64,000 nucleotides of DNA from Oscillibacter sp. (GTDB taxonomy: Bacteria; Bacillota; Clostridia; Oscillospirales; Oscillospiraceae), in NCBI GenBank assembly GCA_017526785.1, contig JAFXQV010000015.1:1-64000 (forward strand), read 5' to 3'. The notes under the pieces are model-generated. The model saw only the letters and a list, made by a program, of their open reading frames with translations. It had not been told where the DNA came from and made no database searches. The translations under genes and the position numbers were made by a program. Shown here piece after piece: positions 6,231 to 58,290 of this stretch; positions within the stretch are counted from its first letter, which is position 1, and every line of letters starts with the position of its first letter.

Positions 6231-7628
6231 ATGTATCAGTTTCTGCTCTATCTGACCGGGTGGCCGCTGGCGCTGTTATTGCTCTGCGGCGGCGTGTACT
6301 TCACTGTCCGGCTGAAGTTCCCGCAGTTCCGGCTTTTCGTCGAATCCATCCGGGTTGTCTCCGAGAAGCCCGTAAGCGCGGACGCGTCCATTTCGTCTTT
6401 CGGCGCGCTGATGATTTCCACGGCGTCCCGCGTGGGTACCGGCAATATTATCGGCGTATCGAACGCCATTTGCGTTGGCGGCCCCGGGGCGGTGTTCTGG
6501 ATGTGGGTCACGGCGATTTTGGGCGGCGCGTCGGCGTTCGTGGAGTCGACCCTTGCCCAGATTTACAAAAAGCGTTCCTCCGACGGTATCAGCTACGGCG
6601 GCCCCGCGTACTACATCGAGGAGGCCTTACACAGTCGCGCACTGGCCATTGTCTTTTCGCTGGCACTCATCACCTGCTACGGCGTGGGCTACAACATGCT
6701 GGCGTCGTATAACCTGCAATCGGCGTTTTCGGGGTTCGCGTTCTACCAGAGCAAGCCGGGCGTGGTTCCTGCGGTGTTCGGGCTGGTGGTATCCGTCATC
6801 ACGCTGTATTGTCTGATTGGCGGCGGACAGCGTATCGTCAAGGTCACGGAAATTTTAGTCCCGGGCATGGGCATTCTCTACGTCCTGCTCTCGCTGATGG
6901 CGCTGACGATAAATATTGGCAACGTTCCGGGCATGTTCGGCATGATTTTCGCGGACGCGTTCAACTTCCGGGCGATTTTCGGCGGGTTCATGGGTTCCTG
7001 CCTGATGTTGGGATTCAAGCGCGGCCTGTACTCCAATGAGGCCGGAATCGGCTCCGCGCCGAACGCGGCGGCGGCGGCGGACGTGTCCCACCCCGTCAAA
7101 CAAGGCCTCGTGCAAATGCTGTCCGTGTTCATCGACACCCTGCTGTTGTGTACGGCGACGGCGTTCATGGTGCTGTGTTCGGGCGTCACGCCGTCGGAGG
7201 ATATCGCGGGCGCGCCGTTCGTACAGCAAGCCTTGTTAAAGACGTTCGGCACCATTGGCCCCGTGTTCATCGCCGTGGCCATGCTCCTTTTCGCGTTTAC
7301 GACCCTGCTGGGCAACTTCTACTACATTGAGAACTGCTTCGCGTACCTGCTCCGCCGCCAGCCGTCCAAGCGGTTCATGAACACGGTTCGGGTCATTGGC
7401 GCGGTGCTGATTTTCCTTGGCGCCATTATCGAAATGAGTTTGGCGTGGAATATCGCGGACATTTGTCAATGTATATTGGCCATTATCAATATTCCGGTGT
7501 GCGTGATTTTGGGCGGGGTGGCGTTCCGCTCTCTGGACGACTACATCGAACAAAAACGCGCCGGGAAAAATCCGGTCTTTCACGCGAAAAATGTCGGTGT
7601 GACCGAACACACGGATTACTGGCAATAA
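6231..7628 (+). CDS. Alanine/glycine:cation symporter family protein (AGCS)
   Basis: 465 residues with about eleven hydrophobic segments. The AGCS signature is present: GTGNIIGVSNAICVGGPGAV, then FWMWVTAILGGASAFVE with the following YGGPAYYIE. The family imports alanine or glycine with sodium or protons. The ATG at 6231 is chosen over the in-frame GTG at 6225 because AGGAAAGGTG lies 7 bases upstream of the ATG. It is single-gene, with its own promoters and a terminator 20 bases after the stop. The C-terminal 35 residues are polar and cytoplasmic. Which amino acid and ion it uses cannot be read from sequence. Confidence 0.93.
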   Translation: MYQFLLYLTGWPLALLLLCGGVYFTVRLKFPQFRLFVESIRVVSEKPVSADASISSFGALMISTASRVGTGNIIGVSNAICVGGPGAVFWMWVTAILGGASAFVESTLAQIYKKRSSDGISYGGPAYYIEEALHSRALAIVFSLALITCYGVGYNMLASYNLQSAFSGFAFYQSKPGVVPAVFGLVVSVITLYCLIGGGQRIVKVTEILVPGMGILYVLLSLMALTINIGNVPGMFGMIFADAFNFRAIFGGFMGSCLMLGFKRGLYSNEAGIGSAPNAAAAADVSHPVKQGLVQMLSVFIDTLLLCTATAFMVLCSGVTPSEDIAGAPFVQQALLKTFGTIGPVFIAVAMLLFAFTTLLGNFYYIENCFAYLLRRQPSKRFMNTVRVIGAVLIFLGAIIEMSLAWNIADICQCILAIINIPVCVILGGVAFRSLDDYIEQKRAGKNPVFHAKNVGVTEHTDYWQ

Positions 7629-49353: not shown

Positions 49354-49376
49354 GCGGTTCCGCGATTTTGTTCATA

Positions 49377-49405
49377 TTGTGTTTCGACGGATTTTCTGAT
49401 ATAAT
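49377..49405 (+). promoter_or_regulatory. Promoter of the GHKL-helicase gene
   Basis: TTGTGT (49377-49382), a 17-base spacer and TATAAT (49400-49405). The expected start is within a few bases of the ribosome site at 49413, giving a leader of under 20 bases. Confidence 0.65.
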
Positions 49406-49427
49406 GTCTATCGGGGAGGTGTCGGCA

Positions 49428-52400
49428 GTGACAGAGCAAGAGGAACTGTATTTCAAGGCCTTAGCGAAGGACAGAACCGAGAACGCCAAGGTTCTGGAAA
49501 AGCCGTCCATGAGCGGAACCAAGGACAGCGTCACAGACAAATACTCAGACCAAGCGCATTTTGTCTACGAACTCCTGCAGAACGCGGACGACGCGGGAGC
49601 CACGCGCGCGCGTTTCGTCCTGTACCCGGACAAGCTGGTTTTCGCCCACAACGGGACGGAGCGCTTTACCATATCGAACCCGGAGACGGAGGACGCGGAC
49701 AAAGAGCGCGGGAAATTGGGGCATATCAACGCCATCACCTCTATAGGACACTCCACGAAAAGTGAGGCGAAAATCGGGAAATTCGGGGTGGGGTTCAAGG
49801 CGGTTTTTCAGTACACCGCCGCGCCGCGCATTTACGACCCGGGTATTTTTTTCCGGATTACGCGCTTTATCGTCCCGGAGAGGCTGGAGGCGGATTACCC
49901 GGAGCGGAAGGCGGGGGAAACCCTCTTTGTGTTTCCGTTCGACGGCGGCAAAATTTCCACGGAAGAGGCGTACGCCGACATTTCCGAAAAATTGCGGACG
50001 CTCTCTTTCCCGGTGCTGTTTCTGTCCAAGCTGGAGACGGTCACATTTCAGGCGGGGGGCGATTCCGGGGAGTACGGGAAACAGACCTTGCAGACCCGGA
50101 CTTTCGGCGATACCGCCGCGGCGTTACTCGAACTGTCCGGCGGACGTGAAAAGGAACGCCTCTGGCTCTTTTCGCGTCCGGACGGGAGCGGGAGAACGTA
50201 TAGCGCGGGCTTTTTCCTGAACGACGCCGGAAAACTGCGGAAGTGCGACGAACCCGCGTTTTGCTTTTTCCCCACGAAGGAGCAAACCGGGCTGAACTTT
50301 ATCATTCACGCGCCGTTCCTGCTGACGGACAGCCGCGAGGGGATTAAGGCTGGCGAAAAGCACAACAAAACCATGATAGAACTGCTGGCGAATCTGGCGG
50401 CGGACAGCCTGTCGTATCTGCGCGACATCGGGGAGCAGTCCGGCGTCCGGCTGATTGACGACGGCATGCTCAATATCATTCCCACGGACAGTAACCGCTT
50501 TCAGAACAGCGGGGGGAGAATTTCCTTTGCACCGTTCTACGAGGCCATCAAGAAGAAACTGAAAACGGACAAACTGCTTCCCACAAAAAACGGGTACGCC
50601 GTCTTCCGACACGCCTACGGGGCTTCTCTTGAAATCATGGACGTTTTCACAGACGAACACCTGCAATATATGACGGGAGACCCGGAGGCGCAATGGGTAT
50701 TTGTTACCCGGTCGTATTACGGCGAAAAGAAAAGTTACCTGAACCAGTTGATTCAGCGGCGTATCAGTGACGACGATATTTTCAACGGGCGTTCTGACTA
50801 TCATTATCGCGGGTGGTCGTATGAAAGCTATGAAGTTGTAAAGAGGATTGACGCGGCGTTTATAGAGCGTCAGCCGCTTGCGTGGCTGCACAAGTTCTAC
50901 AAATGGGTATCGGAATCCGAAGCCCGGAAAGAGCTTGCGCGTAAAAGGCCGCTGTTCCTCTCCAAGAACGGAAAAGCCCTGCCCGCTTATGACGACAACA
51001 ACCGCCTAATTCTCTTCCTGCCGTCCGAAGAAATGCCGCTGGGAGAAAAGACCGTCCATCCGGAACTGTTGGAGAACGAACAGACCGCCGCGTTTCTGGA
51101 AAGTCTCGGCGTCGCGGAGCCGTCCAAGCGGGACTATATCTACAATGAGATATTGCCGCAGTACAAGGACGGCGCGGCCATTGACACGGAACCCCATTTC
51201 AGGCTGTTCTTTGCGTATTACCGCGAGTGTCCGAACGCGGAGACGGACAGCTTTATCGAGGACATCAAAGACTGTAAATTTGTACGGTATTCCAGCGCGA
51301 AGGACGCCACGATTTATCGGGGACGCGCTTCCGACTTGTACTTCCCGACAAAGACTTTGCGGGAGTATTTCGCCGCGAAGCCCGAAACGCTGTTTGTGGA
51401 TTGGAACGGCTATCTTCCGTTCGTGAAGGACAACGAGAGAAAATACTTGGAATCTTTTCTTTCGGAACTGGGCGTGAAGAAAACCGTATCCGTCAGCGTT
51501 GAATCGATTCCCTCTAACATTGGGGTTACGCGCCGTTACGACTGGTTTTCGGGACACCGTTACAGCGATATTTGGCGGGAACCCCGTATTGACGGCTTAC
51601 AGGAGGCATTGCGGGCGATAACAAGCACAAAATCGAAGGGGCAGTCCGTGACACTCTGGAATGTCCTGTTGGGGTTCATGGAATCGCTTCCCAAGGGCAA
51701 AACGCTTGCGGCGTCGCTGACCGGGACTTTTGAGCACTGGCCGCAGGGGAAAGGCAATCACGCGCACAGAACGGGGACATTTGACTCACAAGACATGTCC
51801 GGTCTGCGACAGGAGCCGTGGCTTCTGGACAAAGACGGACAGTTTCTGCCGCCCTGTAAAATGACGCTGGATTCCTTGTCGCCGATTTATGACCGTAAAC
51901 ACGCTTGCGCGAAGGAACTGCTTGATTTTCTACAGTTCAAGCCCGCCGCGCCGCCCGTCGACCCGAACCGTTTTTTAAGCAAAGAGCAGAAGGCGTCACT
52001 TGCGTTGGCGGAAGCGCTGAAAAAGGCGGGCGTGACCGACAGCGCGGAGGCGTTAAGGCTTATCGAGGCGGGCAAAAAAGCGGACGAACGCAGGCGCAAC
52101 CGGGAACGTAATCCGGAGGCGCGGCGCGAAAATGACGCATATGAAAGCGACACGGACAGTCCGGACGAAGGACAGACCATTGCCCCGTCCGTGCGGCGTA
52201 CGAGACGGGAGATTATCAGCCGTACGCACAGCGTCCCGACGTACCCGCCGGAGCCGAAAGCGCGTCAGGACGCGGGGGACTGGGACGAGTATACCCGCCC
52301 GCCCGTGGATTACGCGCAAAAGCTGGAACGTGAGGAAGAAAAAAGCGCCAGAGAACTTGACCGTATCGCGTATCTGCGGGAACTCCAAGACAGGGCGCTG

Positions 52401-54266
52401 GAAATGGAACAATACGCTTTGGGGTGGTTCAAAGTCCTGCTGGAACTGGAAGAGTTAAGCGGCGAGGAGGACAGCCTTGACAGCCGGGAAATTTCCATAC
52501 GCTTTGGGCGGGTGGAGTTGGAGCCGGGGACGGTGCGGACGCTGATTTTGAGCCAGCCCAGCCGGGGAATACCGCGCTTCATGGAGGACTTGTCCAATAT
52601 TCCGCTGGTTCTGCGCATGGATTCCGGGAATAAGACTTTGGGCATTGAGGTCGTGAGTATCCGGGGCTACTCTCTGCGCGTGAAGCTGAAATCCGGCGCG
52701 GAACTGGACGACATCGACCTTTCCGCCGTGAAAGAGGCGTCCATCGACGCCAGAAACCCCTCTTTCCTGCTGAAAGAGTGGCGGACGGCTTTCGAGAGGC
52801 TTCCCGTGCCGGACACGGAGAACCTCCGGGACAAGTTATGTGAAAATATCCGCTTCATCTTTGGCCCCCCGGGGACGGGCAAGACCACGTATCTTGCGAG
52901 CGCGGTTCTCCGCCCGCTCATGCGCGAAAAGGGACGTGTCCGCGTTTTGGTTCTGACGCCGACCAACAAGGCGGCGGACGTTCTGACGGCGCGGATTATG
53001 GAAGTCATGGGGGACGATTTGTCGTGGCGTGAATGGCTTGTGCGCTTCGGAGCCACGCAGGACGAGAACATCGAGCGGAGCGGCGCGTATAGGGAAAAGA
53101 CGTTTGATATCAGGAAATTGTCCCATAGCGTGACCATTACGACAATCGACCGCTTCCCGTACGACTACTTCATGCCGGGTTCGGGAGAGCGTCAGACGCT
53201 GGACGGCTTGCGGTGGGATTACATTGTCTTTGACGAGGCGTCCATGATTCCGCTGTTCAAGATAATCTACCCCCTGCACAGAAAAACGCCCCGCGAGTTC
53301 ATCATAGCGGGCGACCCGTTTCAGATTGGCCCCGTGGCGTCCGTGTCCATCTGGCAGGACGAGAACATTTACAGCATGGTGAGACTGGCGTCTTTCGACG
53401 CGCCCAGTACGATTCCCCACAACTACCCCGTGGAGACGCTGACGACGCAGTACCGGAGCGTCCCGGAGATAGGCGAACTGTTCAGCCGCCTTACCTACGG
53501 CGGAATCCTGAAACATAACAGGACTTCGGCAGAACGCAGAGACCTCGGCCTTCGTGACATACTGGATATAGAGGCCGTCAATATCGTAAAATTTCCCGTC
53601 AGCCAGTACGAGAGCGTCTACCGGGCGAAAAGGCTGGAAAACAGTCCGTATCAGATATACTCCGCCCTGTTCGCCTACGAGTTCGCGTCGTTTCTGGCGG
53701 CGCGCATCCACGAGGCCAAAAAAGACGAACGTTTCCAAATCGGCATTATCACGCCCTACAAGGCGCAGGCGGATTTAATCGAAAAGTTACTGCTCTCCTC
53801 CGCGACGCCGGACGGCGTGGAGGTCATAGCGGGAACCATCCACACGTTTCAGGGGGACGAATGCGACATTCTGCTTGCTCTGTTCAATCCCCCGCCGTAC
53901 ATTTCCGCCTCCAAGGAAATGTTCCTGAACAGGCGGAATATTGTCAATGTCTCCATCAGCAGGGCGCGGGACTACCTGTTTCTGCTCATGCCCGACGAAC
54001 GTACCGAGAACGTGGGAAACCTTAAGATTGTGCTTACGGTCGAGGGGCTTATCCGGGAGCAGGCGGCGTGGACAGAGTACCATTCCGCCGCGCTGGAAAA
54101 GCTGATGTTCGGGAACGAGCGCTTTATAGAGGAAAACACATTTTCGACCAGTCACCAAAGCGTCAACGTGTACGAAGTCCCCGAAAAGCGCTATGAAGTC
54201 AGAACCGAGGATTCCGCCGTGGACATACAGAAGCGCTACAAAAGCAATCCGGAGAGCGCAATATAA
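49428..54266 (+). CDS. Giant GHKL (sacsin/Hsp90-like) ATPase fused to SF1 Upf1-like helicase
   Basis: 1612 residues from the GTG at 49428 (GGGGAGGTG six bases upstream). Residues about 30-210 form a Bergerat-fold ATPase like the sacsin N-terminus: FVYELLQNADDAGATRARFV, then IGHSTKSEAKIGKFGVGFKA. Residues about 210-900 are unrecognised. An acidic/basic linker (about 880-960) precedes a complete SF1 helicase: Walker A GPPGTGKTTYLAS (about 1146), TPTNKAADVLT, motif II VFDEASMIPLF, motif III IIAGDPFQIGPV, LTTQYRSVPEIGELF, GTIHTFQGDECDI and VSISRARDYLFLL. All catalytic motifs look intact. No nuclease domain is visible. The gene is monocistronic between conserved obg and accessory genes. A DNA/RNA-surveillance or anti-phage role is inference. 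Confidence 0.9.
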   Translation: MTEQEELYFKALAKDRTENAKVLEKPSMSGTKDSVTDKYSDQAHFVYELLQNADDAGATRARFVLYPDKLVFAHNGTERFTISNPETEDADKERGKLGHINAITSIGHSTKSEAKIGKFGVGFKAVFQYTAAPRIYDPGIFFRITRFIVPERLEADYPERKAGETLFVFPFDGGKISTEEAYADISEKLRTLSFPVLFLSKLETVTFQAGGDSGEYGKQTLQTRTFGDTAAALLELSGGREKERLWLFSRPDGSGRTYSAGFFLNDAGKLRKCDEPAFCFFPTKEQTGLNFIIHAPFLLTDSREGIKAGEKHNKTMIELLANLAADSLSYLRDIGEQSGVRLIDDGMLNIIPTDSNRFQNSGGRISFAPFYEAIKKKLKTDKLLPTKNGYAVFRHAYGASLEIMDVFTDEHLQYMTGDPEAQWVFVTRSYYGEKKSYLNQLIQRRISDDDIFNGRSDYHYRGWSYESYEVVKRIDAAFIERQPLAWLHKFYKWVSESEARKELARKRPLFLSKNGKALPAYDDNNRLILFLPSEEMPLGEKTVHPELLENEQTAAFLESLGVAEPSKRDYIYNEILPQYKDGAAIDTEPHFRLFFAYYRECPNAETDSFIEDIKDCKFVRYSSAKDATIYRGRASDLYFPTKTLREYFAAKPETLFVDWNGYLPFVKDNERKYLESFLSELGVKKTVSVSVESIPSNIGVTRRYDWFSGHRYSDIWREPRIDGLQEALRAITSTKSKGQSVTLWNVLLGFMESLPKGKTLAASLTGTFEHWPQGKGNHAHRTGTFDSQDMSGLRQEPWLLDKDGQFLPPCKMTLDSLSPIYDRKHACAKELLDFLQFKPAAPPVDPNRFLSKEQKASLALAEALKKAGVTDSAEALRLIEAGKKADERRRNRERNPEARRENDAYESDTDSPDEGQTIAPSVRRTRREIISRTHSVPTYPPEPKARQDAGDWDEYTRPPVDYAQKLEREEEKSARELDRIAYLRELQDRALEMEQYALGWFKVLLELEELSGEEDSLDSREISIRFGRVELEPGTVRTLILSQPSRGIPRFMEDLSNIPLVLRMDSGNKTLGIEVVSIRGYSLRVKLKSGAELDDIDLSAVKEASIDARNPSFLLKEWRTAFERLPVPDTENLRDKLCENIRFIFGPPGTGKTTYLASAVLRPLMREKGRVRVLVLTPTNKAADVLTARIMEVMGDDLSWREWLVRFGATQDENIERSGAYREKTFDIRKLSHSVTITTIDRFPYDYFMPGSGERQTLDGLRWDYIVFDEASMIPLFKIIYPLHRKTPREFIIAGDPFQIGPVASVSIWQDENIYSMVRLASFDAPSTIPHNYPVETLTTQYRSVPEIGELFSRLTYGGILKHNRTSAERRDLGLRDILDIEAVNIVKFPVSQYESVYRAKRLENSPYQIYSALFAYEFASFLAARIHEAKKDERFQIGIITPYKAQADLIEKLLLSSATPDGVEVIAGTIHTFQGDECDILLALFNPPPYISASKEMFLNRRNIVNVSISRARDYLFLLMPDERTENVGNLKIVLTVEGLIREQAAWTEYHSAALEKLMFGNERFIEENTFSTSHQSVNVYEVPEKRYEVRTEDSAVDIQKRYKSNPESAI

Positions 54267-54267
54267 A

Positions 54268-54297
54268 AAATCCCCTCCCGTTTCCGGGAGGGACTTT
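54268..54297. terminator. Bidirectional terminator between helicase and lipoprotein genes
   Basis: CCCTCCCG-tttc-CGGGAGGG. On the minus strand a run of six T follows (strong); on the plus strand ACTTTC (weak). Confidence 0.82.
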
Positions 54298-54299
54298 CA

Positions 54300-55013
54300 T
54301 CAGGTGTTGAGGGAAATTATTGTTTCGACTATGCCGAGGAAGTCCAGCCTGTCCATGCTGGCACTCGCGCCGAGGGAGTAGGAGTAATCGTCGACCGTCC
54401 ACATGGCCAGAAACAGGGAATCTCCGTCGCCCAGACAGGTCACGTTGACGCCTTGAAGCGACTGCGCGACTTCCTGCGTGTACTGGCTGTAGTCTCCGCT
54501 GATGTTCCAGTCTCCGGGAGCCTTGCGGGCGGTCAGGGACGCGTCGGCGTCGTTGGAGTAGATGACCTCAAACAGAGCGCTGTTTTCGGCGACGCGGTAG
54601 GCGACTTTGTCATAGCCGCCGATTTCCTCCGGCACGCCGAACTTGAAGCCCGCCGCCGTCTCGGCTTCGGCATACGTGGCGTAGTCCTTGAAGGGGTTCG
54701 CAAGCCCCATGTCCGGGACTTCGGGCGCGGCGGTATCGTCGGGAGTTGTCGCGGCGGCGTCGGGGGCGGCGGTATCATCGGGAGTTGTCGCGGCGTCGGG
54801 GGCGGCGGTATCATCGGGAGTTGTCGCGGCGGCGTCGGGTGTGGCGGTATCGTCGGGTGTCGCGGCGTCGTCGGGTGCGGCGGTATCGTCGGGAGTTGTC
54901 GCGGCGGCGTTCGTCTCATCGTCGGCGGCGGGTTCGCTGGTGTCCTGTTTGCCGCAGGCCGCGAGGCTTAACGTCAGCGCAAAGGCCAAGGCAAGCGCAA
55001 GCCATTTTTTCAT
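54300..55013 (-). CDS. Lipoprotein with Thr-Pro-Asp repeats and DUF4367-like C-terminus
   Basis: 237 residues. The signal peptide ends ALTLSLAACGKQ (lipobox cysteine 20). Residues 30-98 are a disordered repeat of TTPDDTAAPDAA type, acting as a wall-spanning stalk. The folded domain (about 105-237) contains GFKFGVPEEIGGYDKVAYRV, ENSALFEVIYSN, the ISGDYSQYTQE segment and LAMWTVDDYSYSLGAS. This resembles the DUF4367-like domain of many Clostridia lipoproteins. Monocistronic, with a promoter at 55066-55094. Its function is unknown and a link to the helicase is not supported by operon structure. Confidence 0.8.
   Translation of the reverse strand: MKKWLALALAFALTLSLAACGKQDTSEPAADDETNAAATTPDDTAAPDDAATPDDTATPDAAATTPDDTAAPDAATTPDDTAAPDAAATTPDDTAAPEVPDMGLANPFKDYATYAEAETAAGFKFGVPEEIGGYDKVAYRVAENSALFEVIYSNDADASLTARKAPGDWNISGDYSQYTQEVAQSLQGVNVTCLGDGDSLFLAMWTVDDYSYSLGASASMDRLDFLGIVETIISLNT
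54716..54910 (-). repeat. Short in-frame tandem repeats in the lipoprotein stalk
   Basis: Repeated GCGGCGGTATCATCGGGAG-like units of 27-36 bases encode the TTPDDTAAPDAA stalk. Copies are near-identical in DNA and so prone to length change. Confidence 0.8.
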
Positions 55014-55138: not shown

Positions 55139-57859
55139 TCACAACAGCCCCGTGAGCAGGGATATCAACGCCTCCACAAACTCGTGGCGTACGTCCGGGA
55201 ACGCCCAAATCAAAAACGCGAGCAACAACACGGCCGCGACAGCCGCCTTTATGCCCAGATTCATTTTTGTGATTTCCACTTTCGTTTTGTCCGCTTCCAC
55301 GTTGTTTTTCTTCGTCTCCGATTTGCTCTTTTCGGTGTCGGCGTTAATTTGCGCAATTTCGGCGCGTGTCTTTTCGTCGTCGAGTTCCGATTTCTCCGGC
55401 GGCTCCGGGGCGCGGAACATGTCACGCTGACAGTAACGCGCCGCCTCCTGTTCCCAGTTGTAGTACGTGTCCCGCAACAGTGCCGCCGGGTTGACATACT
55501 TGTGAATGCCCGGAATATAAATTTCGTCCCGCTTGTCGTAATACTGCTGTACCACGTCCTCATAGGGTACGGCACCCTCCTGTCCGTCCACCGTACAGCA
55601 GATGACTTCCGACACTTTCAGGTTTAAGATAGTCAAAATCGCCTGTATCACGCGCCGGAACGTTTCCAGATACTGCCGACAGTCGCGCTCCCCGTTGACA
55701 TAGACATTTAGCGCTTTTTCGTTCATCTCGGCCAGCGCCTCACAGCCGCCGCCCTCCTGCACGAAATGCCCGCCCGTGCGCCAGACACAATCTCTGTCCA
55801 GTTCCGGAAACTTGCGGATTAAGAGACGGTGTATCAGGTTATTGGGCAGATACGCGCCCTCCCAGCGCAGATGTAACGCGTTTTGCCTGTTGAAGTTGTC
55901 CAAAGTCGGCGGGGGCGTCTTGGGCATTTTCAGCGGTATCATCTCGACGCCGTTGCCCATGTCATGCGAAATCTCAAAGTAGCGCATGACATGCAAAATG
56001 TACTCCGTTTCTTCGGGAGTGTACGTGATTTCACTGTGAACGTCCCCGGCGTAGCCGTCGCGCAAGGTGTCCTTAATGGTCTTGTGCGACAGGAAGCCGC
56101 TTTCGGGGGTGCGGAGAATCAGGCGGTAGATACCGTTCGTCAGCCATTGGGGATTGAGTACGCGGACGCTTTCCAGACGCGTGTCAAAGGCGTTGCTCTC
56201 GTAATAGTACGCCACGCCCAAGTCACGGAAAAAGCCCAGCAGGGAGTATTGTAACGCCGCGTCCGTAATGTGATGTTCCGCGCAGATTTCGCGGTAGCGT
56301 TCGGAGGAAATGTAATCGTCTTTCATATCCTCCAAGGTCTGCTTGATTCCCAGCATATCCGCGTTGACCTTGTAGCGGTTGAGCGCGCCGGGGATTTCGT
56401 CAAGAATAGCCGACATCAGACGATTGACGCCGTATTTCCTGTCCTCTGGCTTCTCTTTCGCGGACGTTTTCAGGACGCATTTTAATTTCGGATTGCGTTC
56501 TTTCAAGTCGCGCTCGTTTACGGACACATTCGCGTTGAGGTCGCACTTGTTCAAGGCCAGAATCACGGGGCAGTCGGGCGCGAACGCCTTGACGGTTTCG
56601 AGCCAGCGCGCCGCCTCGTTGTCAATGTCCGCGTCGTCGCGGCTCTCGCAGACCACGACATAGACCGTATGCGCGGTCAGGAAACAGCGGTGCATGGAGT
56701 GCATGATTTCCTGTCCGCCAAAGTCGAGTATGCGCAGCATAAACGGCAGATTCAATAACGGAGTTTCCCATTTTGTGGTCTTTACGCCGTCCGTGGGCAG
56801 TTTGGCCGGGTCAAAGTCGCCGTGAACCATGCGCTGAATGAGGGAGCTTTTTCCGGCGGCACCGTCGCCAAGGAAAATCACCTTGCATTCGCGGACGCGT
56901 ACTTGTTCCAGATACGCCGCCTCTATCACGTCCCGCGGTTGCGCGAACAGTTGCAGGTCGCCTTCGTCCAGTTCGACGCCCGTCAGGTTGATACAGTTAT
57001 AAGCGGTATCATTATCTATGACAAACGGAAGTCCCAGTTTTACCAGAGCGTACGGAATCGCTTTCAGGTGACAGTCGCTCAAATCCAGCAATTGCAGACT
57101 GGACAGGCGCGTGATGGTTTCCGGCACTTCCCGAATTTTGGTGTAACTCAAATACAGCGTTTGCAGACTGGACAGGCGCGTGATGGTTTCCGGCACTTCC
57201 TGAATTTGGGTGCCGCGCAAATACAGCGTTTGCAGACTGGACAGGCGCGTGATGGTTTCCGGCACTTCCCGAATTTGGGTGTAACTCAAATCCAGCGATT
57301 GCAGACTGGACAGGCGCGTGATGGTTTCCGGCACTTCGCTAATGTCAGTGTTGCTCAAATACAGCGTCTGCAGACTGGACAGGCGCGTGATGGTTTCCGG
57401 CACTTCCTGAATTTGGGTGTTGTTCAAAGACAGCACTTGCAGACTGGACAGGCGCGTGATGGTTTCCGGTACTTCGTTAATTTTGGTGAAGCTCAAATCC
57501 AGCGTTTGCAGACTGGACAGGCGCGTGATGGTTTCCGGCACTTCCCAAATTTGGGTGCCGCACAAATCCAGCGTTTGCAGACTGGACAGGCGCGTGATGG
57601 TTTCCGGCACTTCTCGAATTTGGGTGTCGTACAAACCCAGCTTTTCCAGACTTGTCAGGTTTCCAATGGAATCCGGCACTTCCTGAATTTGGGTGTTGCT
57701 CAAATCCAGCGTTTTCCATTGTTGTTCCTCGGCGTCTCGGAGCAGTTCCGCCAGTTCTTCCGGCGTGAGTTCGTCATACAGCCGCTTATATGGCTTATTA
57801 TCCCACGATTGCGGCTCTGACGGGTCATAATCCGGATTCGGTTCCCACAGTTTCGACAT
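55139..57859 (-). CDS. Roco protein: LRR - Roc GTPase - COR - coiled coil - membrane tail
   Basis: 906 residues. About ten 23-residue leucine-rich repeats (about 55-295; unit VPETITRLSSLQTLDL). The Roc GTPase follows (about 325-490): P-loop FLGDGAAGKSSLIQ, switch DFGGQEIMHSM, NKCDLN. COR runs about 490-800 (LGFFRDLGVAYYYES, RVLNPQWLTNGIYRL, HVMRYFEIS). A charged coiled coil (about 816-865) is followed by a hydrophobic segment, LGIKAAVAAVLLLAFLIWAF, and an amphipathic end. The ATG at 57859 follows AAAGGGGG. The LRR sensor, GTPase switch and membrane tail recall NLR-type proteins; a membrane-acting immune role is inference. No kinase domain is present, unlike LRRK2. Confidence 0.93.
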   Translation of the reverse strand: MSKLWEPNPDYDPSEPQSWDNKPYKRLYDELTPEELAELLRDAEEQQWKTLDLSNTQIQEVPDSIGNLTSLEKLGLYDTQIREVPETITRLSSLQTLDLCGTQIWEVPETITRLSSLQTLDLSFTKINEVPETITRLSSLQVLSLNNTQIQEVPETITRLSSLQTLYLSNTDISEVPETITRLSSLQSLDLSYTQIREVPETITRLSSLQTLYLRGTQIQEVPETITRLSSLQTLYLSYTKIREVPETITRLSSLQLLDLSDCHLKAIPYALVKLGLPFVIDNDTAYNCINLTGVELDEGDLQLFAQPRDVIEAAYLEQVRVRECKVIFLGDGAAGKSSLIQRMVHGDFDPAKLPTDGVKTTKWETPLLNLPFMLRILDFGGQEIMHSMHRCFLTAHTVYVVVCESRDDADIDNEAARWLETVKAFAPDCPVILALNKCDLNANVSVNERDLKERNPKLKCVLKTSAKEKPEDRKYGVNRLMSAILDEIPGALNRYKVNADMLGIKQTLEDMKDDYISSERYREICAEHHITDAALQYSLLGFFRDLGVAYYYESNAFDTRLESVRVLNPQWLTNGIYRLILRTPESGFLSHKTIKDTLRDGYAGDVHSEITYTPEETEYILHVMRYFEISHDMGNGVEMIPLKMPKTPPPTLDNFNRQNALHLRWEGAYLPNNLIHRLLIRKFPELDRDCVWRTGGHFVQEGGGCEALAEMNEKALNVYVNGERDCRQYLETFRRVIQAILTILNLKVSEVICCTVDGQEGAVPYEDVVQQYYDKRDEIYIPGIHKYVNPAALLRDTYYNWEQEAARYCQRDMFRAPEPPEKSELDDEKTRAEIAQINADTEKSKSETKKNNVEADKTKVEITKMNLGIKAAVAAVLLLAFLIWAFPDVRHEFVEALISLLTGLL
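57094..57645 (-). repeat. 69-bp tandem repeats encoding the LRRs
   Basis: Eight units spaced exactly 69 bases (23 codons). The common core GCAGACTGGACAGGCGCGTG starts at 57094, 57163, 57232, 57301, 57370, 57439, 57508 and 57577. About half of each unit is identical at every base; only the solvent-face codons vary. This favours copy-number change by slippage or recombination. Confidence 0.95.
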
Positions 57860-57888
57860 GCCGCTGCCCCCTTTCGCGTCACGCCGAC

Positions 57889-57917
57889 AGTTTACCACAT
57901 TTTCCCCCATGACGCAA
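57889..57917 (-). promoter_or_regulatory. Promoter of the Roco gene
   Basis: Minus strand: TTGCGT (complement of 57912-57917), a 17-base spacer and TAAACT (complement of 57889-57894). It is divergent from the Phd promoter 30 bases away. Confidence 0.6.
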
Positions 57918-57932
57918 CCGCGTTTTTTGACG

Positions 57933-57979
57933 TTTACATAAAATTCATCGTTGATTTTTATGTGAAACCATGCTACAAT
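57933..57979 (+). promoter_or_regulatory. Promoter and operator of the Phd-like antitoxin gene
   Basis: -35 TTGATT (57951-57956), a 17-base spacer and -10 TACAAT (57974-57979). An inverted repeat, ACATAAAA and TTTTATGT (57935-57963), overlaps the -35. This position suits antitoxin autoregulation and might also reach the divergent Roco promoter. Confidence 0.6.
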
Positions 57980-58002
57980 ATCCCCACGAGGAGGGATACA
58001 TT

Positions 58003-58290
58003 ATGCCGAATATCAAACCTGTGTCCGACTTGCGCAATTACGCCGAAGTCCTGCGGGATGTGGCGATAGGCCGTCCGGTGTTTCTGACCCGCAACGGCCA
58101 CGGACGTTACGCCATTCTCGACATAGAGGAGTATCAAGAGTACGAGCGCATGAAGGCCATGCAATGGCTCATGGGCGAACTCGAAAAGGGTCGCCGTTCC
58201 GGCGAGGAAGAAGGATATATCCCGTTTGAGGATGTCTTCCGGGAGTTGGGCGTTGACGAAGCCGCACAGTGCGACGACGAAAGCGAATAA
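58003..58290 (+). CDS. Phd/YefM family antitoxin, no toxin partner
   Basis: 95 residues. The YefM/Phd N-terminal fold is MPNIKPVSDLRNYAEVLRDV then GRPVFLTRNGHGRYAILDIE, and the C-terminal toxin-binding tail is helical and acidic (LMGELEKGRRSGEEEGYIPF). GAGGAGGG precedes the ATG. A terminator follows directly and the next gene is on the other strand, so no RelE- or Doc-type toxin is linked. It may neutralise a toxin elsewhere, be a remnant, or regulate the divergent Roco gene (inference). Confidence 0.88.
   Translation: MPNIKPVSDLRNYAEVLRDVAIGRPVFLTRNGHGRYAILDIEEYQEYERMKAMQWLMGELEKGRRSGEEEGYIPFEDVFRELGVDEAAQCDDESE

Follow-up and report, generated by a model that had tools for sequence, protein, structure and literature searches.

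A TmtA-like ATPase fused to a Upf1-like helicase in Oscillibacter: a candidate defence protein from a patchily distributed family

The window analyzed here, a stretch of 64,000 nucleotides from an Oscillibacter sp. genome (assembly GCA_017526785.1, contig JAFXQV010000015.1, positions 1 to 64,000), carries on its forward strand a gene for a protein of 1612 amino acids at 49428..54266 (GTG start, TAA stop). A previous reading made from the sequence alone had described this gene as a fusion of a GHKL ATPase with a superfamily 1 (SF1) helicase, and its coordinates and motifs proved right in the open reading frame (ORF), Pfam, and NCBIfam results. Because the chance of 1612 codons without a stop is about 10^-28 at the base composition of the gene, and because full-length relatives (29-88% identity) keep the frame whole, the gene is real and not a chance frame. 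It had also been credited with its own promoter and terminator, of which the first was borne out in part and the second at most as a shared one. A possible promoter read by eye at 49377..49405 (+) combines a poor -35 element (TTGTGT), a 17-nt spacer, and a perfect -10 element (TATAAT, 49400-49405) that is absent from the list of a consensus promoter scan; a promoter belonging to the gene is only plausible. A possible ribosome-binding site (GGGGAGG, 49413..49419, +), likewise read by eye, lies 8 nt before the GTG. Between the gene and a converging minus-strand gene lies a hairpin (54272..54293) whose T-run is on the minus strand; it is therefore better placed as the terminator of that converging gene, being at most shared.

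The neighbors of the gene in the window are obg, a lipoprotein-like gene, and a Roco-type gene. The small lipoprotein-like gene (54300-55013, -) was recognized by eye and contains a low-complexity TPDDTAA-type repeat; the 302-aa ORF listed for it starts too early, and an ATG near 55013 fits better by eye. The Roco-type protein (923 aa, 55139-57910, -) is encoded convergently with the gene and contains leucine-rich repeats, a Roc GTPase, COR-A, and COR-B, and had no match in PADLOC. Beside it lies a Phd/YefM-like antitoxin gene (57970-58290, +) that scored just below the Pfam cut-off.

A scan of species genomes returned 499 stretches encoding a relative, a share of which may have the ATPase half alone, the scan patterns having been drawn from that half. 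The best 80 of these 499 were kept, 69 of them full length in one frame, and were joined with six more into a set of 86 loci, which is a best-scoring rather than a random sample and includes many metagenome bins. From the family alignment, 11 of the 86 loci were excluded as broken, partial, or truncated at a contig end, and 70 of the remaining 75 were used after an 85% identity filter. Structure alignments were made without L005, L006, and L034, and the C-terminal alignment consisted of 30 sequences.

Residues 1-205 (49428..50042, +; outer boundary approximate) were assigned to a GHKL/Bergerat ATPase of the sacsin/Hsp90 type by using Pfam, NCBIfam, conservation, and Foldseek. Pfam SACS matched residues 35-135 (E = 1.6e-12) and NCBIfam P_loop_sacsin also matched (E = 5.7e-20), both above cut-off. 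The catalytic glutamate, the N-box asparagine, and the glycine motifs are present, as in a predicted GHKL ATPase, and 95% or more of 71 aligned sequences have E48, N52, D55, G98, G117, G120, and G122. The AlphaFold model of residues 2-1130 (pLDDT 84.7, pTM 0.61) and that of residues 985-1612 (pLDDT 88.0, pTM 0.82) were confident except in a linker at about 890-960. Foldseek searches with the N-terminal model returned Hsp90/TRAP1 as the best match (E = 1.8e-8), together with sacsin SR1 (1.4e-6). The ATPase is followed by a beta-rich part in the secondary structure of the model (residues 205-340, 50040..50447, +), which from its position may correspond to the Hsp90 middle/transducer domain. Residues 340-845 (50445..51962, +) form an alpha/beta array with weak internal repetition (E values of 8e-4 and 6e-5 among six sub-segment pairs in profile comparison). 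A linker modelled at low confidence and long helices (residues 846-990, 51963..52397, +), recognized from pLDDT and secondary structure, lead to the helicase.

The middle of the protein had been suggested as the site of a novel effector, an idea that found no support. An alpha/beta array without active-site candidates is predicted there, as part of the TmtA-like scaffold described below. The window protein had no match in Pfam searches of 68 middle regions, which returned single-member matches alone (E = 0.002-0.0099), and a PDB profile search with the middle region returned no match. The positions kept in at least 95% of the 71 sequences between residues 340 and 985 are P352, F478, W486, Y491, P565, Y638, Y662, G723, S740, W798, and Y821, none of them charged, and a hidden effector in this region was rejected as unsupported. 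Pfam reported no DnaJ, HEPN, kinase, or phospholipase-D domain above cut-off in the window protein.

Residues 985-1530 (52380..54017, +) were assigned by Pfam, AlphaFold, and Foldseek to a complete Upf1-like SF1 helicase with a stalk, a 1B-type barrel, and two RecA folds, the names of these sub-domains having been read from secondary structure. Pfam matches here were AAA_12 (1.6e-20) and AAA_11 (2.9e-12). The SF1 motifs are GPPGTGKT (1146-1153), DEAS (1269-1272), GDPFQIG (1295-1301), TIHTFQGD (1470-1477), and SRARDY (1511-1516), and K1152, D1269-E1270, Q1341, R1343, and R1512 are kept in at least 95% of a set formed by 70 diverse relatives and the window protein. Both enzyme sites are conserved across the family in sequence and structure alignments, and the earlier view that the fusion is genuine with both motors apparently intact was confirmed, catalytic positions being kept at 95% or more in the 71 sequences. 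Foldseek with the C-terminal model gave Upf1 as the best match (E = 1.1e-26), followed by Sen1, IGHMBP2, and Dna2; motifs and best fold matches (Upf1, IGHMBP2, Sen1) together place the predicted motor in the Upf1-like group of SF1. From its fold, it would translocate and unwind in the 5'-3' direction on RNA or single-stranded DNA.

The last 82 residues (1531-1612, 54018..54263, +) are a family-specific signature, in which E1557, T1574, H1576, N1580, Y1582, Y1589, R1592, and D1599 are invariant in all 30 aligned members. As a known enzyme this signature was rejected, the PDB search having yielded a single hit that was not significant (E = 1.6). Its confirmed occurrences in viral contigs are restricted to the four that already hold family members.

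The sequence-only reading could not match this architecture to a described system. That statement no longer holds, since PADLOC matched TmtA, which we take to be the protein of the single-gene defence system Tiamat, to residues 1 to about 700 (E = 6e-46; to about 990 in relatives), and MkoA of Mokosh to part of the helicase (E = 6e-32). The TmtA model PDLC03972 aligned with the window protein over profile positions 36-212 and 281-682 of 1302, with the relative in L005 as far as profile position 938 (residue 994), and with that in L077 as far as profile position 925 (residue 955). Shared with Tiamat are a GHKL/sacsin ATPase and the long array that follows it, and on this homology residues 1 to about 990 are a TmtA-type scaffold. 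The likeness covers the N-terminal scaffold and not the whole protein: the C-terminal 600 or so residues are here a Upf1-like helicase, and residues 712-1612, searched alone, matched MkoA over part of the helicase but no TmtA model (E ≤ 1e-5). In Sulfuricurvum, a TmtA-like protein whose gene adjoins a Qat anti-phage operon ends in NOV_C and not in a helicase. The window protein is thus best described, from these matches, as a TmtA-type scaffold joined to a different working part. For Tiamat itself, a table row gives the mechanism as "Unknown" (PMC12926258).

With Mokosh (MkoA/MkoC) the protein shares the SF1 core, the best MkoA stretch running from residue 1262 to 1519 against positions 791-1072 of 1112 in PDLC03920. 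This match is part of the helicase, whereas the N-terminal half matches TmtA instead; no full-length match was found, and the kinase or phospholipase-D domain that is associated with Mokosh is among those missing above the Pfam cut-off. Sacsin and Hsp90, which act as chaperones, share the ATPase domain (Pfam SACS; Foldseek TRAP1 and sacsin SR1) and differ in that the domain is fused here to a helicase and that Pfam reported neither DnaJ nor HEPN. CnuH of the CoCoNuT Type IV restriction system is described as a Upf1-like helicase with a stalk and an OB-fold that is attached to a restriction system, encoded by its own gene in association with a McrB-type GTPase (PMC11090510), whereas in the window protein the helicase and a GHKL ATPase form one chain. 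A literature search of titles and abstract openings returned no description of a GHKL ATPase-Upf1-like helicase architecture.

Presence of the family was very patchy. Of 99 related genomes, four gave a match, that of the window itself, two with full-length relatives (88% and 50% identical), and one with a weak match to the helicase alone, so that 2 of the 98 other genomes hold a full-length relative. Of 391 class genomes sampled evenly, three matched at E ≤ 1e-30, the window's own among them (2 of 390 others). None of the three genomes whose obg is closest to that of the window (87-91% identical protein) has the family gene, and in all three the DNA alignment runs to window position 49354, just upstream of obg, and then stops. 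One of these (G003) has different ORFs upstream of obg, and in another (G019) the contig continues for only about 0.6 kb past obg. Read by eye, the flanking genes are thiolase-like and repeat/cytidine-deaminase-like for the 88% relative; for the class relative in G188, a solitary copy with an intact frame of 1587 aa, they are secreted-protein-like and selD-like. The gene order given earlier, between obg and accessory genes, is correct for the window, but the obg flank is a variable site and the linkage is not conserved. Universal conservation beside obg had been named as one outcome that would speak against the defence or surveillance reading, and the genomes did not bear it out. The gene is accessory and not housekeeping.

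Full-length relatives were found on two Bacteroidota plasmids (38 plasmid records matched overall, the others partially) and in four IMG/VR contigs, while phage records gave two partial matches only. The 86 loci, including the best 80 of 499, fall into 13 named phyla, with seven loci lacking a phylum: Bacillota (34), Bacteroidota (23), Pseudomonadota (7), Spirochaetota (3), and nine more represented by one or two loci apiece. A tree of 76 rows built from the helicase part has 15 changes of phylum label where its 11 phyla need at least 10. Since this tree was quick, with long branches and many metagenome bins, it was used for the broad pattern only. A Spirochaetaceae bin placed inside Lachnospiraceae and a Methylobacter bin beside Lewinellaceae suggest transfer, and binning errors may account for some of the odd phylum labels. 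The copies of L021, L087, and L090, from a Butyricicoccus genome and two IMG/VR contigs, are nearly identical and occur with Type III-like Res genes, and this region may be mobile or phage-borne cargo. Just downstream of the full-length family gene in L033, the C-terminal part of the helicase occurs a second time as an incomplete copy (6378-7391, +), 51% identical to window residues 1273-1601.

The survey of genes beside homologues that the sequence-only reading had proposed was carried out on these loci, and it turned up recurrent partners in part of the family. The commonest neighbor family in the 86 loci (including the best 80 of 499) was a RecD-like protein of about 1220 aa, present in 18 loci and matching the PADLOC candidate PDC-S68 (1762 bits for the copy in L024). 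It is directly adjacent to the family gene in 17 of the 86 (on the same strand, upstream in 11 and downstream in three; convergent in two; and divergent in one). The distance is at most 240 bp in 16 loci and 8.6 kb in L006; in L080, where the family gene is broken, 34 bp separate the end of PDC-S68 from its first piece. Compared with the L024 copy, identity ranges from 83% down to 24%, and the linkage is therefore old or was repeatedly rebuilt. On the helicase tree the PDC-S68 label changes 12 times, some of the rows labelled "other" being cut by contig ends. At E ≤ 1e-30, PDC-S68 was found in 0 of the 391 class genomes by a search that recovers 4 of 4 known holders.

An alignment of the 18 PDC-S68 copies (that of L009 is shortened and without a tail) shows SKSE, PDFT, and WEHxG blocks in the tail, which we take to be a PD-(D/E)XK-like nuclease; Pfam nuclease models did not match the two copies scanned. 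Homology between PDC-S68 and the window protein is limited to the shared SF1 motor (E ~1e-6). PDC-S68 is itself a defence candidate only, and its name was not found in the literature searched. PDC-S68-like genes also occur without the family gene, beside a Type ISP restriction-modification (R-M) gene on Paracoccus p7 (L143), near a Type I R-M operon on a Bartonella plasmid (L144), and near a NACHT gene in Rhizobium (L146). An extra C-terminal domain of about 125 aa is present in nine family members (L007, L017, L022-L024, L055, L070, L079, and L080), seven of which are PDC-S68 loci; this domain could serve to dock the partner, and Pfam reported helicase domains only in the one example scanned (L024).

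Type III restriction-type genes were found in 10 of the 86 loci (including the best 80 of 499), or in seven after removal of near-identical viral copies. The Res gene lies directly upstream in nine of the 86 and further off in one more; Type III Res models match it only weakly (4.6e-11) in the L021 group. Both kinds of partner occur at L006 and L007. The description of the fusion as lacking a nuclease therefore holds for this protein, while 17 of 86 relatives adjoin a nuclease-like partner and 10 of 86 Type III restriction-type genes. When the loci were de-duplicated and limited to those flanked by 3.6 kb or more on each side, 46 remained, 17 with a partner and 29 with neither. A PADLOC enrichment test, from which three near-identical loci were first left out, compared 84/198 near with 117/181 distant (at least 6 kb) neighbor proteins. 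PDC-S68 accounted for nine near proteins and one distant protein, the latter from L006, itself a family locus. Beyond the partners, PADLOC matches near the gene were not clearly richer than those at least 6 kb away; because these were scattered both near and far, no broader defence-island claim is made. Three near proteins that match TmtA were not counted as neighbors and most likely represent the N-terminal parts of the family genes that are broken in L060, L080, and L081.

The window copy adjoins neither PDC-S68 nor Mod/Res, and no PDC-S68 was found in its genome (94.6% complete), which holds a RecD-like frame of 742 aa only. It is a solitary copy in no recognized defence island, and the window accordingly shows neither a two-gene module with PDC-S68, nor an accessory of Type III R-M, nor an obg-linked housekeeping gene. 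Elsewhere in the genome there are two N6/N4-methylase matches and nine ResIII matches, one being the gene itself; these say little about R-M acting in trans, since ResIII matches occur in 14 of 14 control genomes.

Taken as a whole, the proposal of a candidate defence protein is partly supported, the gene being accessory and its relatives lying near restriction or nuclease-like genes. That the ATPase may sense and the helicase act was proposed in the sequence-only reading. We consider it probable, though well short of certain, that this is a horizontally mobile gene for an anti-phage (or anti-plasmid) helicase motor, that a TmtA-like ATPase gates the motor, and that it works with different nucleases or alone. 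The sacsin/Hsp90-type ATPase and repeat array would form a TmtA-like chassis that probably dimerizes when ATP is bound, serving as a clamp or gate. Once the gate is satisfied, the Upf1-like helicase would run along the single-stranded nucleic acid of the invader. DNA is the likelier substrate, being what the partners act on, although Upf1-like helicases use RNA too (PMC11090510). Under such a division of labor, cutting would probably be supplied by a neighbor, PDC-S68 or the Type III restriction-type genes, in 26 of the 86 loci (best 80 of 499 plus six). The solitary copy of the window would probably block or dismantle replication or transcription intermediates alone or borrow a host nuclease; protection by solitary copies, if any, is the weakest step of this mechanism.

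Among other explanations, the likeliest makes the protein an accessory of restriction systems, a remodeller that helps or restrains its partners, for instance by clearing Type III Mod/Res or PDC-S68 from DNA, with solitary copies being relics or acting on host R-M in trans. The association with Type III-type Mod/Res and PDC-S68 speaks for it, as does the presence of PDC-S68 on other plasmids beside Type ISP and Type I R-M genes. We nevertheless regard it as unlikely, given the 29 of 46 well-flanked loci that have neither partner and the solitary copies, which do not look like relics because the window copy keeps all its motifs and the G188 frame is intact. A non-immune role in stress or in RNA/DNA surveillance, where a chaperone-like ATPase and a Upf1-like helicase clear stalled transcripts, R-loops, or recombination intermediates, would suit the nearest solved folds (Upf1, Sen1, IGHMBP2, and Dna2), the chaperone activity of sacsin and Hsp90, and the solitary copies among ordinary chromosomal genes. 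It fits poorly with the very patchy presence, the changing position, the plasmid and IMG/VR copies, and recurrent partners that are restriction and helicase-nuclease genes, and we judge it improbable. That the protein is simply a divergent Tiamat with nothing new is very improbable in spite of the TmtA profile match and the common N-terminal scaffold, given that TmtA models leave residues 712-1612 unmatched and that the Sulfuricurvum protein ends in NOV_C.

The gated anti-phage motor that we favor would have a wider form, which we put forward tentatively: a widespread and undescribed defence family in which a shared TmtA-like, ATPase-gated Upf1-type chassis is licensed to interchangeable effectors (PDC-S68, Type III enzymes, or none), and in which the ATPase decides when a general helicase attacks. 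Because the same ATPase scaffold as in TmtA carries a recognizable motor at its other end here, a role for the scaffold is suggested, that of gating a module that acts on nucleic acid. The repeated pairing with PDC-S68 and with Type III restriction-type genes makes a testable two-part system, and it gives a hypothesis of function for PDC-S68, so far an orphan candidate in PADLOC.
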